Shown here: in pieces, positions 212-14,832 of the stretch
How positions within the stretch are numbered: position 1 is the stretch's first letter
Layout: every line of letters starts with the position of its first letter
Source: Bacteroidota bacterium
GTDB lineage: Bacteria > Bacteroidota > Bacteroidia > Flavobacteriales_E > Vicingaceae
Direction of reading: 5' to 3'
Assembly (NCBI GenBank): GCA_013112545.1
Contig: JABFGJ010000001.1
Location: 124,001 to 188,000, forward strand
DNA: 64,000 nucleotides
Notes under the pieces: generated by a model
What the model was told of the DNA's origin: nothing
Databases searched by the model: none
Seen by the model: the letters and a program-made list of their open reading frames with translations, nothing else
Program-made: the position numbers and the translations under genes

Positions 212-236
212 GCAGCTATTAAATTCAACTTTTATT

Positions 237-3304: not shown

Positions 3305-4034
3305 CTAATAATTTGGATTGAATAATTTCTCTAGTTCTTTCGCGCAAAGTTATCAAATCTTGATAATCTTTTGAACTTGGCTCTATGGGTTTGTGAAAAT
3401 GAATTTCTGCAAGGCCTGGCCCACATTTGGAATCTATAGTCCAAGTATCTTGTAGCAAAAGGTAATTACGAGGAAAACTTATAGGTAAGATTGGAATTTT
3501 ATTTTCAATCGCCACTTTAAATGCGCCATTTTTAAAAGGTTTCATCACAGGAACTGTGTTTGAAATTGTTCCTTCTGGAAAAATAACCACACTACTGCCC
3601 TTTTCCATTTCTTGAATCGCCTTGTTTATAGCATTATGAGATGCTTTTGGATTTCCCCGATCGATTAAGATATTCATTCGTTTAAAATAAATATTAAATA
3701 AAGGAACACTGCCTAGTTCTTTCTTACCTAAAAAAACAAAATAACTTGAGATGCTAGCACTTAGCAATAAGATATCTAAATAAGAGCTGTGGTTAGAACA
3801 AATAATATAAGATCGGTTATCTTTGGGAAACTCACCAAATTCTATTCTTCGAATTCCAATAAGTAGCAATATAATTTTTGCTTGTAGGCGAACACATTTA
3901 AATCCAATGCTGAAATATTTCTCCTGCATTAAAACCACTAAAAAAATGGGATAAAATAAAATAATAGTAAATAAAACAATTAGAAAAAAGTAAGCTTTCC
4001 ATATATAACCGAGTATTCCTTTTATCATTTTCAT
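3291..4034 (-). CDS. 1-acyl-sn-glycerol-3-phosphate acyltransferase (PlsC family)
   Basis: The product has 247 residues. Hydrophobic segments at about 10-35 and 45-62 anchor it in the inner membrane. The catalytic HX4D motif is NHSSYLD (His82, Asp87) and the substrate-binding motif FPEGT is at about 152-156. PlsC enzymes acylate lysophosphatidic acid to phosphatidic acid in phospholipid synthesis. The start chosen is the ATG at 4034; a second ATG six nt later gives MIKGILG and is almost as plausible. A consensus -7 box (TATTTTTG on this strand, 4047-4040) ends 5 nt before the first ATG, which suggests a leaderless mRNA. gatC overlaps the 3' end. Confidence 0.88.
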   Translation of the reverse strand: MKMIKGILGYIWKAYFFLIVLFTIILFYPIFLVVLMQEKYFSIGFKCVRLQAKIILLLIGIRRIEFGEFPKDNRSYIICSNHSSYLDILLLSASISSYFVFLGKKELGSVPLFNIYFKRMNILIDRGNPKASHNAINKAIQEMEKGSSVVIFPEGTISNTVPVMKPFKNGAFKVAIENKIPILPISFPRNYLLLQDTWTIDSKCGPGLAEIHFHKPIEPSSKDYQDLITLRERTREIIQSKLLDGSR

Positions 4035-9935: not shown

Positions 9936-10394
9936 ATGTTTACAGGATTACTACATTTACACAATTTGTTGCGCTATGCAATTGTTATTTTACTTGTGAT
10001 AGCATTGATAAAATCGTTTGCAGGCTGGTTTGGCAAAAAAGAATACACAGCAGCGGACAATAAAATTAGTTTGTTTCTTTTAATCTCGGCTCACTTACAA
10101 TTGTTGATTGGCTTAGGTTTGTATTTTATAAGCCCTGTTGTTAAGGAAGCCATGACTGATATGGGAGCAGCCATGAAAGATGCTGTCCTTAGATTTTGGG
10201 CAACGGAGCACCTTAGTGCTATGATTCTTGGTATTATTCTTATTACTTTGGGTAGAATAATGGGTAAAAAAGGAAAAAACGACACAGCAAAATTTAGAAG
10301 ACAAGCCATTTACTTTTTATTGGCAACAGTTCTTATCTTTTCAGCTATTCCTTGGCCATGGGCCGAAATGGGAATTGCTAGACCTTGGTTTTAA
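9936..10394 (+). CDS. Four-helix membrane protein, cytochrome b-like
   Basis: The 152-residue product has about four transmembrane helices (about 10-30, 45-66, 90-108, 125-143). Conserved-looking His residues sit in or near helices: LLHLHNLLRY (His7, His9), SAHLQLLIG (His53) and EHLSAMILG (His92). This spacing resembles small cytochrome b-like or CopD-like proteins that bind haem b between helices, and similar Bacteroidota proteins are often named 'cytochrome B'. Haem binding is an inference. The inverted repeat ATATCTTT / AAAGATAT (9915-9922 / 9930-9937) spans the likely -7 region and the ATG. hflX starts 12 nt downstream. Confidence 0.62.
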   Translation: MFTGLLHLHNLLRYAIVILLVIALIKSFAGWFGKKEYTAADNKISLFLLISAHLQLLIGLGLYFISPVVKEAMTDMGAAMKDAVLRFWATEHLSAMILGIILITLGRIMGKKGKNDTAKFRRQAIYFLLATVLIFSAIPWPWAEMGIARPWF

Positions 10395-10406
10395 TAACGA
10401 TTTACG

Positions 10407-11600
10407 ATGCATCACAACCTATCAATAGATAGTAAAATAGAAAAAGCTGTGCTTGTTGGTCTGATTACACAAGACCAAGACGAGGAAAAAGTTAAAGAGT
10501 ACTTAGATGAATTAGCATTTTTGGCTGAAACCGCTGGTGCTGAAACGGTAAAAAGATTTACTCAAAAAATAAGCACACCTAATCCAAAAACTTTTGTTGG
10601 AACAGGAAAACTACAAGAAATTATAGATTATGTTAACAAGCATGAAATCGGTATTGTAATTTTTGATGATGAACTAAGCCCTTCTCAAACAAGAAATATT
10701 GAGAATTCTTTTAAAGAAATAAAGGTCATCGATCGAAGCAACTTAATCCTAGACATTTTTGCAAAAAGGGCTCGGACTGCTGCTGCTAAAACTCAAGTTG
10801 AATTAGCTCAATACGAATATTTACTCCCTCGCTTAACGAGAATGTGGACTCACCTTTCTCGCCAAAAAGGGGGAATCGGAATGAGAGGTCCTGGGGAAAC
10901 TGAGATTGAAACAGACAGACGAATAATTCGCGATAAAATTGCTTTGCTTAAAACAAAGCTCGCTAAAATTGACAAGCAAAAAGAAACACAACGCAAAGGT
11001 CGTCAGCAAATGATTCGAGCGGCATTGGTAGGATACACCAATGTTGGAAAATCAACCTTGATGAATTTGATTTCAAAATCGGATGTTTTTGCAGAGAATA
11101 AATTATTTGCCACCCTTGACACCACAGTAAGAAAGATTGTCGTTGGAAACTTGCCATTCTTATTAACTGATACAGTAGGATTTATCAGAAAACTCCCACA
11201 TCATTTAGTCGATTCTTTTAAATCAACACTTGATGAGGTTAGAGAGGCTGACATCTTACTGCACGTTGTAGATATTGCGCATCCAAATTTTGAGGAACAA
11301 ATAGAAACAGTAAATAACACTTTAATTGATATCGGCGCAAAAGACAAACCAACCATAATGGTTTTCAATAAAATTGACGCTTATACTTACATCAAAAAAG
11401 AGGAAGACGATTTAACTCCAGAAACAAAGAAGAATTTGAGCTTGAACGATTTAGAAAAAACATGGATGGCCAAAGAAAACTATCCTTGCATATTTATCTC
11501 GGCCGAAAAGAAAATCAATATCGATGAGTTTAAAGATTTGTTATATGATGAAATCAAAGGGCTTCATGTTCGAATTTATCCGCATCGGATGTTGTATTAA
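10407..11600 (+). CDS. hflX: GTPase HflX
   Basis: The 397-residue product is a normal-length HflX, a ribosome-binding GTPase that splits stalled or hibernating 70S ribosomes under stress. The N-terminal HflX domain contains TFVGTGKLQEI and FDDELSPSQTRN. The linker has GGIGMRGPGETEIETDRR (155-172), a family signature. The G domain shows G1 GYTNVGKST (209-217), G3 DTVGFIRKLP and G4 VFNKID. The gene is close behind the small membrane protein and probably cotranscribed. The C-terminus is short and ends in HVRIYPHRMLY. Confidence 0.95.
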   Translation: MHHNLSIDSKIEKAVLVGLITQDQDEEKVKEYLDELAFLAETAGAETVKRFTQKISTPNPKTFVGTGKLQEIIDYVNKHEIGIVIFDDELSPSQTRNIENSFKEIKVIDRSNLILDIFAKRARTAAAKTQVELAQYEYLLPRLTRMWTHLSRQKGGIGMRGPGETEIETDRRIIRDKIALLKTKLAKIDKQKETQRKGRQQMIRAALVGYTNVGKSTLMNLISKSDVFAENKLFATLDTTVRKIVVGNLPFLLTDTVGFIRKLPHHLVDSFKSTLDEVREADILLHVVDIAHPNFEEQIETVNNTLIDIGAKDKPTIMVFNKIDAYTYIKKEEDDLTPETKKNLSLNDLEKTWMAKENYPCIFISAEKKINIDEFKDLLYDEIKGLHVRIYPHRMLY

Positions 11601-11676
11601 AAACATGAATATACTTAAGCAGAAACCGAATCCTAAGGGTACTCGGCTTTCAAAATTAGATAAAACCCACAATTTA

Positions 11677-11693
11677 CGACTCCAAAGGAGTCG
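11677..11693. repeat. Short perfect hairpin in the hflX/DUF4143 spacer
   Basis: CGACTCC and GGAGTCG form a perfect 7-bp stem with a 3-nt AAA loop. No T tract follows on the plus strand, so it is not a good intrinsic terminator. Compact GC-rich hairpins of this kind in AT-rich spacers of Bacteroidota are often copies of dispersed repeats, but only one copy was found here. Confidence 0.5.
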
Positions 11694-11773
11694 CACTTTA
11701 TTATACGTTTAATGCAGGGAATAGGTCTGCCTTAACGAAACTCAACTTGCAAGAACCAAGTTAAAACAGAACC

Positions 11774-11845
11774 TTTTGCGAATACAATCGCAAAATGTTT
11801 AGTCTTTTTGCGAACACAATCGCAAAAAGTGTAGTCTTATTGCGA
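11774..11845 (+). repeat. Tandem palindromic repeats upstream of the DUF4143 ATPase
   Basis: Two direct repeat units of about 32 nt and part of a third are present. Unit 1 carries TTTTGCGA (11774-11781) and TCGCAAAA (11788-11795) around a 6-nt spacer. Unit 2 carries TTTTTGCGA (11805-11813) and TCGCAAAAA (11820-11828) around a 6-nt spacer. Each palindrome is followed by a TAGTCT stretch. The third unit stops after TTATTGCGA (11837-11845). The array ends 10 nt before the ATPase -7 box, so it could be an operator. Confidence 0.7.
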
Positions 11846-11866
11846 TTTTATACTTATTTTTGGCTT

Positions 11867-12991
11867 ATGATTAAGCGCATTCTCTATAAAAATATTCTCG
11901 AAAGGCTAAAAACAAAAAAAGCAATTATTCTACTTGGGCCTAGACAAGTTGGCAAAACCACCATGCTTAAAGGTTTCATAAAAAAGAAGGAAGATACCCT
12001 ATGGCTTAATGCTGATCACCAAGACGTACGTGAGCTTTTCAACCAACCTAGTTCCATTGAATTTCAAAAAACATTTGCTAATTCGAAAACTGTAATCATT
12101 GATGAAGCACAACAAATTCCTAATATCGGTAGAAAACTTAAACTAATAACCGATGAATTACCAGATATACAATTAATCGTTACTGGTTCATCTGCATTTG
12201 AATTAGCCAATAAAGTAAACGAGCCACTGACTGGTAGAAAATGGGAGTTTCAGCTTTTCCCAATTTCTTTTCAAGAAATGATAAACCACCATGGAATCTT
12301 AGAAGAAAAACGACTTCTAAATCACAGATTAATTTACGGATACTACCCAGAAGTAGTAACCGCAAATGGCAACGAGAAGGAACTTTTAAAACAACTTTCT
12401 GACAGCTATTTGTATAAAGATATTTTAATATGGAATAAAATTAATAAAAGCGAGATGTTAACTAAATTGCTCCAATTGTTAGCGTTTCAAGTTGGGAGTC
12501 AAGTTTCATATAATGAGCTTGGAAAAACTTTAGGATTAGACAATGAAACCATCGAATCATACATCCAATTACTAGAGTATTCTTTTATTGTTTTTCGGTT
12601 AGGCTCGTTTAATAGAAATTTGAGAACTGAATTAAAAAAGAGCAGGAAAATTTACTTTTATGATAATGGAATCCGCAATGCTTTAATCGCCAATTTTCAA
12701 CAAGCTAATTTAAGAAATGACATTGGGGCATTGTGGGAAAACTTTTTAGTTTCTGAAAGAATGAAATTTAATGCATACAACAATCGTTGGGTTAATCGAT
12801 ATTTTTGGAGAACTAAAGCACAACAAGAAGTTGATTATTTGGAAGAAACAGATGGACAATTACACGCCTTCGAGTTTAAATGGAATACGAGTAAAAATGT
12901 AAAAATCACCAAAGCATTCACCAATGCATATCCCAATGCTATCACCAAAATAATAAGCCCAAACAATTACGTGGAATTTGTTGCGCAATAG
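11867..12991 (+). CDS. AAA-family ATPase with DUF4143 domain
   Basis: The ATG at 11867 gives 374 residues starting MIKRILYKNI. A longer reading from 11795 begins inside the upstream palindromic repeats and is rejected. The Walker A motif is GPRQVGKTT (24-32), Walker B is TVIIDEAQ, and TGSSAFEL is a sensor-like segment. The C-terminal DUF4143 region ends with QQEVDYLEE and HAFEFKW, the D-x(n)-E-x-K pattern of a PD-(D/E)xK nuclease-like fold. Function of the family is poorly known; members are scattered among bacteria and archaea and are thought to move between genomes. A TATTTTTG -7 box (11855-11862) ends 4 nt before the ATG, predicting a leaderless mRNA. Neighbours are unrelated housekeeping genes. 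Confidence 0.85.
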   Translation: MIKRILYKNILERLKTKKAIILLGPRQVGKTTMLKGFIKKKEDTLWLNADHQDVRELFNQPSSIEFQKTFANSKTVIIDEAQQIPNIGRKLKLITDELPDIQLIVTGSSAFELANKVNEPLTGRKWEFQLFPISFQEMINHHGILEEKRLLNHRLIYGYYPEVVTANGNEKELLKQLSDSYLYKDILIWNKINKSEMLTKLLQLLAFQVGSQVSYNELGKTLGLDNETIESYIQLLEYSFIVFRLGSFNRNLRTELKKSRKIYFYDNGIRNALIANFQQANLRNDIGALWENFLVSERMKFNAYNNRWVNRYFWRTKAQQEVDYLEETDGQLHAFEFKWNTSKNVKITKAFTNAYPNAITKIISPNNYVEFVAQ

Positions 12992-13011
12992 GTGCTAACC
13001 TGCTTATTTGC

Positions 13012-14832
13012 TTATGCGAAGGTCTGTAAGTCGGTCAACTTTTTATACACGCCATTTTGTGCAATTAAATCATCGTGGGTTCCGCGTTCAGCAATTTCAC
13101 CTTCGTGCATTACAATAATTTCATCGGCATGCTGAATGGTAGATAAACGGTGTGCAATAACTACAGAAGTTCTATTTTGCATCAGCTTATACAAGGCATC
13201 TTGAACTAATTTTTCCGACTCTGTATCCAAAGCAGAAGTAGCTTCATCTAAAATCATAATCGGAGGGTTTTTCAAGACTGCTCTTGCAATACTAATTCTT
13301 TGCCTTTGTCCTCCTGAGAGTTTGCCACCGCCATCGCCAATATTGGTTTCATATCCCTCTGGCATCTTTTCGATAAATTCATGTGCGTTGGCAATTTTTG
13401 CCGCTGCCACAACATCTTCCATTTTTGGATTTTCAACCCCTAAAGCAATGTTGTTAAAAATAGTATCATTAAACAAAATCGATTGCTGAGAAACAATACC
13501 CATTAAGGAACGAATGTCTTTCACTTTATAATCTGTCAGTGGTTTTCCATCCAATAAAATAGCTCCTTCAACCGGATCATAGAATCGTGGCAATAAGTCA
13601 ACCATAGTTGACTTTCCACCTCCTGATTGGCCGACCAAAGCAATGGTTTTCCCTTTTGGAATGCTCAGGTTTATATTTTTCAAAACAGTGGTTTCGCCAT
13701 AAGCAAAACTAACATTTTGATAAGTCAACTCAGACTGAAAAGTTGCAAGTGGCGCTGCATTTTCTTTTTCAATAATGTTGTTTTTAGCTTCAATGATTTC
13801 AGAAATACGCTCAGTTGAAGCAGCTCCTTTTTGTATGTTGTAGTATGCTGTTGATAGCGATTTAGCAGGACTCAATAATTGAGAGAAAATAATAATATAT
13901 CCGATGAATTCTCCACCACTGAAATTGGTATCTGCATCTATGACCATTTTACCACCATACCAAACTAGCGTAACCATTACTATAGATCCCAAAAACTCAC
14001 TCATGGGAGATGCCAAATCTCTCTTGCGCATCATTCGAAGCATGGTTTTATTATAAGTTTCGTTCATGTGGTTAAACTTATTATCACTTGATCTCTCAGC
14101 ATTAAAGGCTTTTATAATTCTCAAGCCAGTTAAGGTTTCTTCTACATTTGAAAGTAATTCACCCATTCTTATTTGTAGCTTAGAAGAGGTTCGTTTTAAA
14201 CTCTTACCCACCCTACCGATAAGCAAACCACTAAGTGGTAGTAGAATAAAAGAAAACAAAGTTAGACCAGCATTCATATTTAACATCACAAAAAGCGAAA
14301 GCACAATCGAAATGGGATCGCGGAAAAGCATTTCTAAAGAATTCATAACCGACCATTCTACCTCTTGTACATCTCCAGTAATTCTGCTGATGATATCTCC
14401 CTTTTTCTCTTCAGAATAAAATGATAGTGGCAGAACTAAAATTCGTGCATAGATATCTCTTCGCAAATCTCGAACGACATTGCTTCTAATATAGGCCATA
14501 AAGAAACGAGCCAAATAACCAAATAAGTTTTTCAAGAAAAATAAAGCTGCAACTGAAATGCAGATAAAAAACAAAGCTCCTTCTTGCCCATTTTCTTGGA
14601 TATAAGGAGACATTTTGTAATTGAATAGGCTTTCAAGGTAACTGACACTATAACTAAACTCGGGTTTCACAAGTATAGGCTCAGCATCTTCAAATAAGAG
14701 TTTCAAAAACGGAATAAAAATCAATAAAGAAAGTAAGTTAAAAATGATAGCGATAATGTTATTCCCTATGCTTAAAAAAGCATATAGTTTGTATGGTTTC
14801 ACATATCTGATTACTGTTAGTAAACTTTTCAT
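13012..14832 (-). CDS. ABC exporter, fused permease and ATPase (MsbA/MDR type)
   Basis: The 606-residue product has an N-terminal six-helix ABC transporter domain (about 15-330) and a C-terminal nucleotide-binding domain. Walker A is GQSGGGKST (401-409), the signature is LSGGQRQR (505-512), Walker B is MILDE (526-530) and the H-loop His is at 561 (IAHRLST). Such half-transporters act as homodimers and export lipids, lipid A precursors or drugs. The substrate is not shown by sequence. A GT2 glycosyltransferase starts the operon 4 nt upstream, which makes a role in envelope glycan or lipid export reasonable but unproven. Confidence 0.9.
   Translation of the reverse strand: MKSLLTVIRYVKPYKLYAFLSIGNNIIAIIFNLLSLLIFIPFLKLLFEDAEPILVKPEFSYSVSYLESLFNYKMSPYIQENGQEGALFFICISVAALFFLKNLFGYLARFFMAYIRSNVVRDLRRDIYARILVLPLSFYSEEKKGDIISRITGDVQEVEWSVMNSLEMLFRDPISIVLSLFVMLNMNAGLTLFSFILLPLSGLLIGRVGKSLKRTSSKLQIRMGELLSNVEETLTGLRIIKAFNAERSSDNKFNHMNETYNKTMLRMMRKRDLASPMSEFLGSIVMVTLVWYGGKMVIDADTNFSGGEFIGYIIIFSQLLSPAKSLSTAYYNIQKGAASTERISEIIEAKNNIIEKENAAPLATFQSELTYQNVSFAYGETTVLKNINLSIPKGKTIALVGQSGGGKSTMVDLLPRFYDPVEGAILLDGKPLTDYKVKDIRSLMGIVSQQSILFNDTIFNNIALGVENPKMEDVVAAAKIANAHEFIEKMPEGYETNIGDGGGKLSGGQRQRISIARAVLKNPPIMILDEATSALDTESEKLVQDALYKLMQNRTSVVIAHRLSTIQHADEIIVMHEGEIAERGTHDDLIAQNGVYKKLTDLQTFA

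Follow-up and report, generated by a model that had tools for sequence, protein, structure and literature searches.

The ATPase genes of the DUF4143 family, one of which lies in the 64,000-nucleotide stretch of Bacteroidota DNA analysed here (the window), commonly carry palindromic or direct repeats shortly before their start codons, and the letters of these repeats vary together with three residues of the encoded protein. We consider it probable, at roughly three chances in four, that the repeats serve the ATPase gene as its own operator, meaning that this ATPase-nuclease binds its own array and represses its own gene. Physical binding, the dimer stoichiometry and repression are what we infer.

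In the window, two direct repeats of 32 nt each (91% alike, 11774-11837) lie upstream of an AAA_14/DUF4143 ATPase gene. The array, the promoter and the gene comprise the following features:

11774-11805, plus strand: array unit 1, palindrome TTTTGCGA-N6-TCGCAAAA and a 10-nt linker, together 32 nt; the exact site is unique to units 1 and 2
11806-11837, plus strand: array unit 2, same palindrome TTTTGCGA-N6-TCGCAAAA, 32 nt; the exact site is unique to units 1 and 2
11838-11852, plus strand: half unit 3, TTATTGCGATTTTAT, with one half-site TTGCGA, adjoining the -7 box upstream (inverted pairs I1, I5; 32 nt after unit 2)
11855-11862, plus strand: -7-like promoter box TATTTTTG (TAnnTTTG), assigned by sequence; the same box is enriched before homologues
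11867-12991, plus strand: AAA_14 + DUF4143 ATPase gene, 374 aa, PADLOC PDC-S01 (Pfam, PADLOC, starts of homologues)
11936-11959, plus strand: Walker A, residues 24-31 (G24, R26 and G29 invariant in 163 rows, K30 invariant in 75)
12539-12547, plus strand: codons of D225, N226 and E227, candidate specificity residues at the start of the predicted recognition helix (covariation, held-out test, AlphaFold2)
12542-12580, plus strand: predicted recognition helix of the winged helix-turn-helix, residues 226-238 (AlphaFold2 model)
12737-12880, plus strand: PD-(D/E)XK-like nuclease motif E291, E321xD323, E336xK338 (near-invariant residues, secondary structure)

The box TATTTTTG, which we take to be a -7 box of the Bacteroidota type, is separated by four bases from the ATG at 11867; no clear -33 element was found at the usual distance from it in the window. 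The mechanical ORF call begins at 11795, within the array. Because the homologues begin at the position corresponding to 11867 and the longer reading frame would begin inside the array, the start of the ATPase was placed at 11867. The array lies upstream of the -7 box and adjoins it, i.e. it forms a site over the gene's own promoter, as is characteristic of autoregulatory operators. The sequence-only reading of this DNA had described palindromic units of about 32 nt that end just before the -7 box, and this description was borne out (11774-11852, box at 11855-11862).

With up to three mismatches, the palindrome has four matches in the window, namely the two sites read on both strands (shuffle mean 0.61), a number reached by none of 100 shuffles of the window. 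The exact site TTGCGAN6TCGCAA occurs in the whole 3.27-Mb genome only in array units 1 and 2 (reversed control 0), and at up to three mismatches there are 40 matches per strand vs 33 for the reversed control, so that no additional sites stand out. The earlier reading had asked whether the same repeats recur elsewhere in this genome; the exact site is confined to this array, and dispersal of the repeats over the genome is thereby ruled out. At the gathering threshold, Rfam gave no match at the array (10001-14000 searched), i.e. no structured RNA family was recognised there. Two paralogues are encoded on contig C2 or C5 of the same genome: the start of a distant one (L007) is preceded by palindromic repeats of a different sequence (GATAAGTCAACTTATC), and another (L004) is interrupted by a stop codon.

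For a view across the family, DUF4143 genes and their upstream DNA were taken from 199 relatives, a GTDB scan (43 loci, 39 used) and 395 genomes of the phylum. A region was scored as repeat-bearing if the 130 nt before the start held an inverted repeat of at least 9 or a direct repeat of at least 13. By this score 82% of 128 homologues (90%-identical copies removed) have palindromes or direct repeats, and about 18% do not, compared with 7% of 144 control upstream regions from the same loci and 6% of 1280 dinucleotide shuffles; the control regions precede ORFs called mechanically from an ATG over 120 codons or more, some of which are not real genes, and some of the control regions are coding. 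The set of 128 excludes five genes that were too short or had too little upstream sequence (L049, L004, L025, L143, L150), three copies of others (L117, L118 and L146, copies of L008, L010 and L035) and then 15 genes at 90% identity. In a distant branch (L007, L084-L116; 27-38% identity), 28 of 34 genes pass the score. The check for palindromes before homologous genes that the earlier reading had proposed thus came out positive. The single TGCGA...TCGCA motif that it expected there did not appear, and one common motif for the whole family is ruled out, as the letters vary while the architecture stays.

What the close family does share is position and period. Among its genes the lag of the direct repeat is 32 nt in 75, 33 nt in 6, 64 nt in 3 and 66 nt in 1, that is, 32-33 nt or the double in all 85 genes with a measurable direct repeat (of 156 with the repeat masked). 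Outside the close family the period is not fixed, with lags from 22 to 51; the group labelled remote in this wider analysis mixes redundant close genes with truly remote ones, and only its lags were used. Of 156 homologues, 101 have a TAnnTTTG box within 80 nt of the start (mononucleotide shuffles: 12 of 156), and in 87 of the 101 box-bearing genes 10 or more of the 27 nt that precede the box belong to repeats. The locked lag and the overlap with the box, together with differing letters, mean that the close family keeps position and period but not letters. The claim that ATPases of this kind are linked to such repeats is, taken together, strongly supported (82% vs 7%, the locked period, and 11 of 14 arrays in the reverse search described below).

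Plasmid members passed the repeat score in 8 of 19 cases, two from Bacteroides (L279, L280) and 6 of 17 from other phyla (L277, L278, L281, L319, L322, L327); in this sample, L280 has the same upstream region as L071, and the two Thermus records have a single upstream sequence in common. Imperfect palindromes touching the ATG were seen by eye in other plasmid members and were left out of the count. On Pseudomonadota plasmids (L281, L319-L324, L330) a palindrome of about 36 nt, CCTTGCAA...TTGCAAGG, often imperfect, ends at the start codon; by eye, its outer arms look constant and its inner core variable. For proteobacterial plasmid members with a palindrome touching the ATG, a role at the RNA level is also possible. 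A Moraxella bovis plasmid has a nearly perfect palindrome of 45 nt (L327:545-589) 5 nt before its DUF4143 ATPase gene, which is followed by another AAA ATPase gene. A search for a conserved partner gene found a same-strand ORF of at least 100 codons closely downstream in 45 of 197 genes.

The protein of the window can be described as a STAND-like ATPase with a winged helix-turn-helix and a predicted PD-(D/E)XK-type nuclease domain. Both Pfam models, PF13635 (DUF4143) and PF13173 (AAA_14), score above their gathering values (143.3 bits vs 28.1 and 105 vs 27), and residues 1-372 match positions 1-373 of the 375 in the PADLOC model for PDC-S01 (PDLC04789, E 1.2e-167), a family that we presume to be identical with COG1373. 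The AlphaFold2 model (75 sequences) has a mean pLDDT of 92.9 and a pTM of 0.91, and contains helices at 195-207, 215-222 and 226-238 and strands at 242-247 and 260-264. Residues 195-264 accordingly form a winged helix-turn-helix in the model, the assignment of helix and wing being our own, and given this order of helices and strands, residues 225-227 would open its recognition helix. The fold of residues 1-275 matches best the archaeal AAA+/STAND-like ATPases PABY2304 (2qen; Z 16.6, rmsd 3.4, 255 aligned) and SSO1545 (2fna; Z 16.0, rmsd 3.3, 253 aligned), followed by the NB-ARC domains of NLR proteins and CED-4. These structure matches point to a STAND-type NTPase, with an AAA+ fold followed by helical and winged-helix domains. 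In the Foldseek and VIA-align comparisons, the C-terminal nuclease domain lay outside the aligned range of the best matches. Its catalytic-type residues are conserved throughout the family (E291 in 159, D323 in 159, E336 in 158 and K338 in 156 of 163 rows), in the E...D...ExK order of PD-(D/E)XK enzymes, which makes it a putative nuclease. Since ATPase and nuclease residues alike are near-invariant, the protein must do more than regulate itself.

Which part of the protein goes with the letters of the array was addressed by a sliding-window scan over 93 close homologues, using the partial correlation of local identity with repeat similarity at constant overall identity. This unbiased scan peaks at residues 221-231, and 4 of 200 permutations of the site labels reach its maximum; restricted to pairs below 50% identity, the top window is 340-350 and 221-231 comes fifth. 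A second scan took in 157 of 163 genes and compared the sites more strictly; among its 374 single columns, E227 and D225 rank first and second whether all pairs are used or those below 50% or below 45% identity. The three-residue window 225-227 is best for all pairs and for those below 50%; below 45% it ranks lower than eighth, and the observed maximum is equalled or exceeded in 21 of 100 permutations. At comparable overall identity, proteins with the same residues 225-227 have alike sites more often than those with different ones: 61 of 248 vs 86 of 4129 pairs at 45-55% identity, 47 of 135 vs 30 of 643 at 55-70%, and 9 of 127 vs 73 of 6894 below 45%.

Common descent was taken into account with a FastTree tree built without the helix-turn-helix columns, on which phylogenetically independent pairs were scored for changes in residue class and motif. 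Pairs changing in the same vs the opposite sense numbered 7.0 vs 0.0 for the class D225-K226-N227 (DKN, R3; median p 0.016), 5.8 vs 0.1 for K227 (R2; median p 0.03) and 5.5 vs 0.5 for S or N225 with K226 (S/N-K, R4; median p 0.07); two smaller classes gave 3.1 vs 0.0 and 1.3 vs 0.1, too few to test. The covariation suggests that the protein's own winged helix probably reads the array by binding it. The earlier reading had considered a recognition site for the nuclease-like C-terminal part; the covariation points instead to the winged helix-turn-helix at residues 195-264. Paralogues within a genome share residues 225-227 in 2 of 56 pairs, where about 3 would be expected from between-genome pairs of the same identity, so there is no evidence for an avoidance of shared specificity among them.

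Rules connecting residues to words were read by eye from the first 93 genes and recorded before new genes were fetched. According to these rules, N226 with E or Q227 goes with GCGA or GCGG, K227 with GGATT or GGAAT, DKN with (G/A)GTGA and S/N-K with GTCA; three further classes are smaller. Among the new genes, 35 of 43 that could be classified have the predicted words, while 2000 label shuffles gave a mean of 15.3 (sd 2.7, maximum 25). By class, the words were found in 11 of 14 K227 genes (9 of 55 others), 7 of 7 DKN genes (12 of 62 others) and 15 of 20 S/N-K genes (9 of 49 others), and two single-gene classes both match (9 of 68 and 6 of 68 others). The eight misses belong to K227 (L222, L225, L226) and S/N-K (L169, L170, L172, L176, L217). 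A further 26 of the 69 held-out genes fall into no rule class; several of these have a word of their own by eye, e.g. SRN with GTTCA (L187, L188, L193).

All held-out proteins stay below 80% identity to the earlier ones, and 6 of 69 reach 70% or more; three held-out pairs are more than 90% identical to each other. Agreement persists at low identity, with 18 of 22 matching below 60% (shuffle mean 8.2, maximum 16) and 10 of 14 below 55% (mean 4.8, maximum 10). The training genes match in 64 of 76 cases under the same rules, a figure that is circular; the training rows are 93 of 94 close genes (L082 has no repeat), and all 69 held-out genes were taken, with or without repeats. A single script, run once after the rules had been recorded, set the 130-nt window and the thresholds for counting motifs; its words for R5 and R6 differ slightly from the recorded rules, and no held-out gene belongs to either. 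From these comparisons of sequences, the repeat core appears to be set mainly by residues 225-227, in a largely predictable code.

The reverse search started from the site alone. The tandem GGAWT-type pattern (GGAWTNNAWTCC twice, 32 apart) was found in 395 genomes of the class as 14 distinct arrays in 14 genomes (reversed control 0), and 11 of these lie 6-40 nt before a match to the DUF4143 ATPase, all 11 proteins having the predicted K227. Five of the 11 loci were in the earlier sets and six are new; five of the 11 (two known, three new) come from one genus (g44). Of the remaining arrays, one (L292) follows the end of an ATPase gene, one (L294) is a palindrome with no DUF4143 ATPase gene near, and one (L287) has no ATPase and a flank that matches the array flank of G665, so that it looks, from its sequence, like the relic of a lost ATPase gene. 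Downstream of this orphan array, parts of L287:1670-1895 (G646) recur at about 20 further places in the genome as a dispersed repeat. A GCGATT-type tandem pattern had no match in the 395 genomes and was too strict to inform. The single site TTTGGAWTNNATTCCRAA was also searched for in seven genomes that encode K227 proteins and has 16 distinct positions there (reversed control 0): 13 at ATPase promoters, one at a relic-like promoter and two inside unrelated ORFs. With the patterns tried, no regulon beyond the own promoter was found in these seven genomes.

An autoregulatory operator best accounts for a site that covaries with the product of the gene behind it, overlies that gene's promoter and is almost absent elsewhere. 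Self-regulation, one of the options in the sequence-only reading, is thereby favoured on the grounds of covariation, position and rarity as far as the self-operator goes; repression itself is judged from position, and activation is possible but less likely. Several facts weigh against the operator: 26 of 69 held-out genes are unclassified, 8 of 43 miss, the scans at low identity are weaker, and about 18% of homologues have no repeat. The constant 32-bp period, kept regardless of letters, suggests protein assemblies on one face of the DNA. We propose that the two winged helices of one dimer would read both halves of each palindrome, and that dimers or larger assemblies, spaced at 32 bp, or about three turns of the helix, along the promoter, would block RNA polymerase, by which the gene would keep itself at a low level. 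Half-site words differ and seem to depend chiefly on residues 225-227, so cross-regulation between paralogues would be rare. A plausible scheme is that of a self-limiting ATPase-nuclease that would be freed once its array is lost, titrated or remodelled; as a guess, the nucleotide state might release the protein from the array and arm its nuclease, which would resemble a defence or selfish system made of one gene.

A bolder form of this scheme, which we hold to be doubtful, would make the PDC-S01/DUF4143 proteins a large set of largely orthogonal, sequence-addressed ATPase-nucleases, each directed by a simple winged-helix code to the array of its own gene. At rest the protein would stay bound there, the occupied array acting as the switch; an ATP-driven nuclease would be freed when invading or replicating DNA, or recombination between flanking arrays, removes or titrates the array. 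The array itself would combine the parts of sensor, operator and, in bracketed copies, element end.

That the array is first of all the end of a minimal mobile or selfish element, whose ATPase and nuclease excise, integrate or convert sites with promoter control being secondary, we regard as unlikely. This proposal draws on genes that have the same site also about 4-120 nt behind the stop codon, which is the case for 9 of 201 (near-identical copies kept), 7 of the 9 in direct orientation and with a reversed-site control of 0 of 201; in six of the nine there are further copies upstream. Such downstream copies are not needed by simple repression; they could mark the end of an element, allow the DNA to loop from one operator to another, or have arisen by tandem duplication with loss. 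Yet 192 of the 201 genes have no downstream copy in the flank at hand, the exact site of the window lies only upstream, and recognised repeats at both ends, as in an insertion sequence or transposon, are therefore not a general feature of the family. Also in favour of an element are the array without a gene (L287), the relic-like promoter (L267:1999) and the patchy distribution of the ATPase (100 of 199 genomes) and its presence in 550 plasmid records, as well as the entry of COG1373 among the most prevalent transferred COGs, according to the available part of that study (PMC10782964). Against it, no target duplication was noticed in the loci read, which was done non-systematically, and the locked period of the repeats and their coverage of the DNA in front of the -7 box point to the promoter.

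The history of the locus itself bears on the same question. In the window the ATPase gene lies between hflX and an ABC transporter gene. Among 30 hflX loci examined in the bacterial family of the window (46 genomes searched), four have the ATPase there (G000, G011, G025, G026) and three have hflX next to the ABC gene without it (G019, G009, G014). The other three ATPases at hflX are 72-76% identical to that of the window and have the same kind of site upstream (L008, L010, L011), and their spacers to hflX measure 71, 108 and 367 nt vs 267 in the window. The same place in four genomes of one family is unlike an active element; a homologue in G037, 72% identical, that lies on another contig than its hflX speaks for one. 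Four loci with and three without the ATPase fit inheritance with loss as well as insertion, and the empty sites are too diverged to place an insertion boundary. A trace of transfer, another suggestion of the sequence-only reading, therefore finds no support at this locus.

Several arrangements were seen in individual loci. In L098, L134 and L188, near-identical long palindromes or arrays bracket the gene in direct orientation, at most about 110 nt from the stop codon. In L267 of G073 (around positions 1999 and 3751-3800), two DUF4143 ATPase genes stand head to head; about 150 nt behind one of them the site of its partner appears again, and after it comes the apparent start of a lost third copy. 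On the Pseudomonadota plasmids L281, L320 and L323 the ATPase gene has repC or repA replication/partition genes as neighbours, and in L281 and L323 an integrase or recombinase flanks it on the opposite side; in L324 a tyrosine recombinase gene comes after it.

We think it very unlikely that the array is a target or licence tag, by which the nuclease would cut or spare DNA, e.g. in defence or exclusion against elements with the same word. The near-invariant PD-(D/E)XK residues would suit such a role, as would the PADLOC class of the protein: PDC-S01, a candidate for phage defence in PADLOC, is one of the defence candidates from a guilt-by-embedding approach, and the accessible part of the source places it fourth by frequency among prokaryotic defences (9,986 copies in archaea, 29,494 in bacteria), still as a candidate and with no mechanism given there (PMC12988326). 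Against this role, both site types tried are rare in viral contigs, with three matches of the tandem GGAWT pattern (one beside a DUF4143-like ATPase) and one match of the window's site, the latter without an ATPase; with 3 + 1 matches, one of the four beside such an ATPase, viral contigs were rejected as carriers of target arrays. A nuclease cutting its only chromosomal site would, moreover, presumably be suicidal. A reading of the palindromes as hairpins in RNA (terminators or attenuators), or as generic repeats near promoters that have nothing to do with the protein, is scarcely credible, for although some precede a T tract or touch the ATG (L098, L281), transcription from the -7 box in the window would leave out the array, which precedes that box, the letters covary with the recognition helix, Rfam has nothing at 10001-14000, and control regions pass the repeat score in 7%.

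Autoregulatory palindromic operators as such are a known kind. Restriction-modification C proteins, toxin-antitoxin systems and phage repressors have phased palindromes over their own promoters, with one specificity per system; here the putative regulator would be the ATPase-nuclease itself and not a small dedicated repressor. The winged helix of the Orc1/Cdc6 initiators binds specific origin DNA. Like the window protein these initiators combine AAA+ with a winged helix (2qby_B, Z 11.9, rmsd 8.9, 207 aligned), whereas the DUF4143 repeats lie in the own promoter with letters that vary between genes, and nuclease residues are present in the protein. SSO1545 and PABY2304 share the fold of residues 1-275, with the C-terminal nuclease domain of the window protein outside the aligned range, and we know of no operator for either of them. 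In the mycobacterial signal-transduction ATPase IniR, a SSO1545-like ATPase domain is part of a transcription regulator, which differs in that its predicted DNA-binding domain is C-terminal and LuxR-like and that it regulates another operon, as far as the available text of that paper goes (PMC5760070). The NB-ARC domain of the plant NLR Rx1, with homology to Cdc6/Orc1, binds DNA, and an array in its own promoter is not mentioned in the portion of the article at hand (PMC4599002). PDC-S01, which the window protein matches over its full length, is described as an ATPase fused to PD-(D/E)XK (PMC12988326, in part), and the accessible sections of the PDC-S01 literature make no mention of an upstream array, a DNA-reading helix-turn-helix or autoregulation. 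Nor were arrays of this kind found described in the open-licence literature, as far as its text was available, on DUF4143, PF13635/PF13173/COG1373, the archaeal structures or PDC-S01. To our knowledge, what is new is a family of STAND-like ATPase-nucleases whose members have their own phased arrays, together with a largely predictable winged-helix code.

Because the DNA address lies beside the gene and the residue code is short, the DNA ligand of such a protein is often predictable from sequence. Binding, regulation, orthogonality of paralogues and triggering of the nuclease thus become directly testable for a domain of unknown function, and the finding suggests that the winged helices of bacterial STAND-like ATPases can be sequence-specific readers of DNA.
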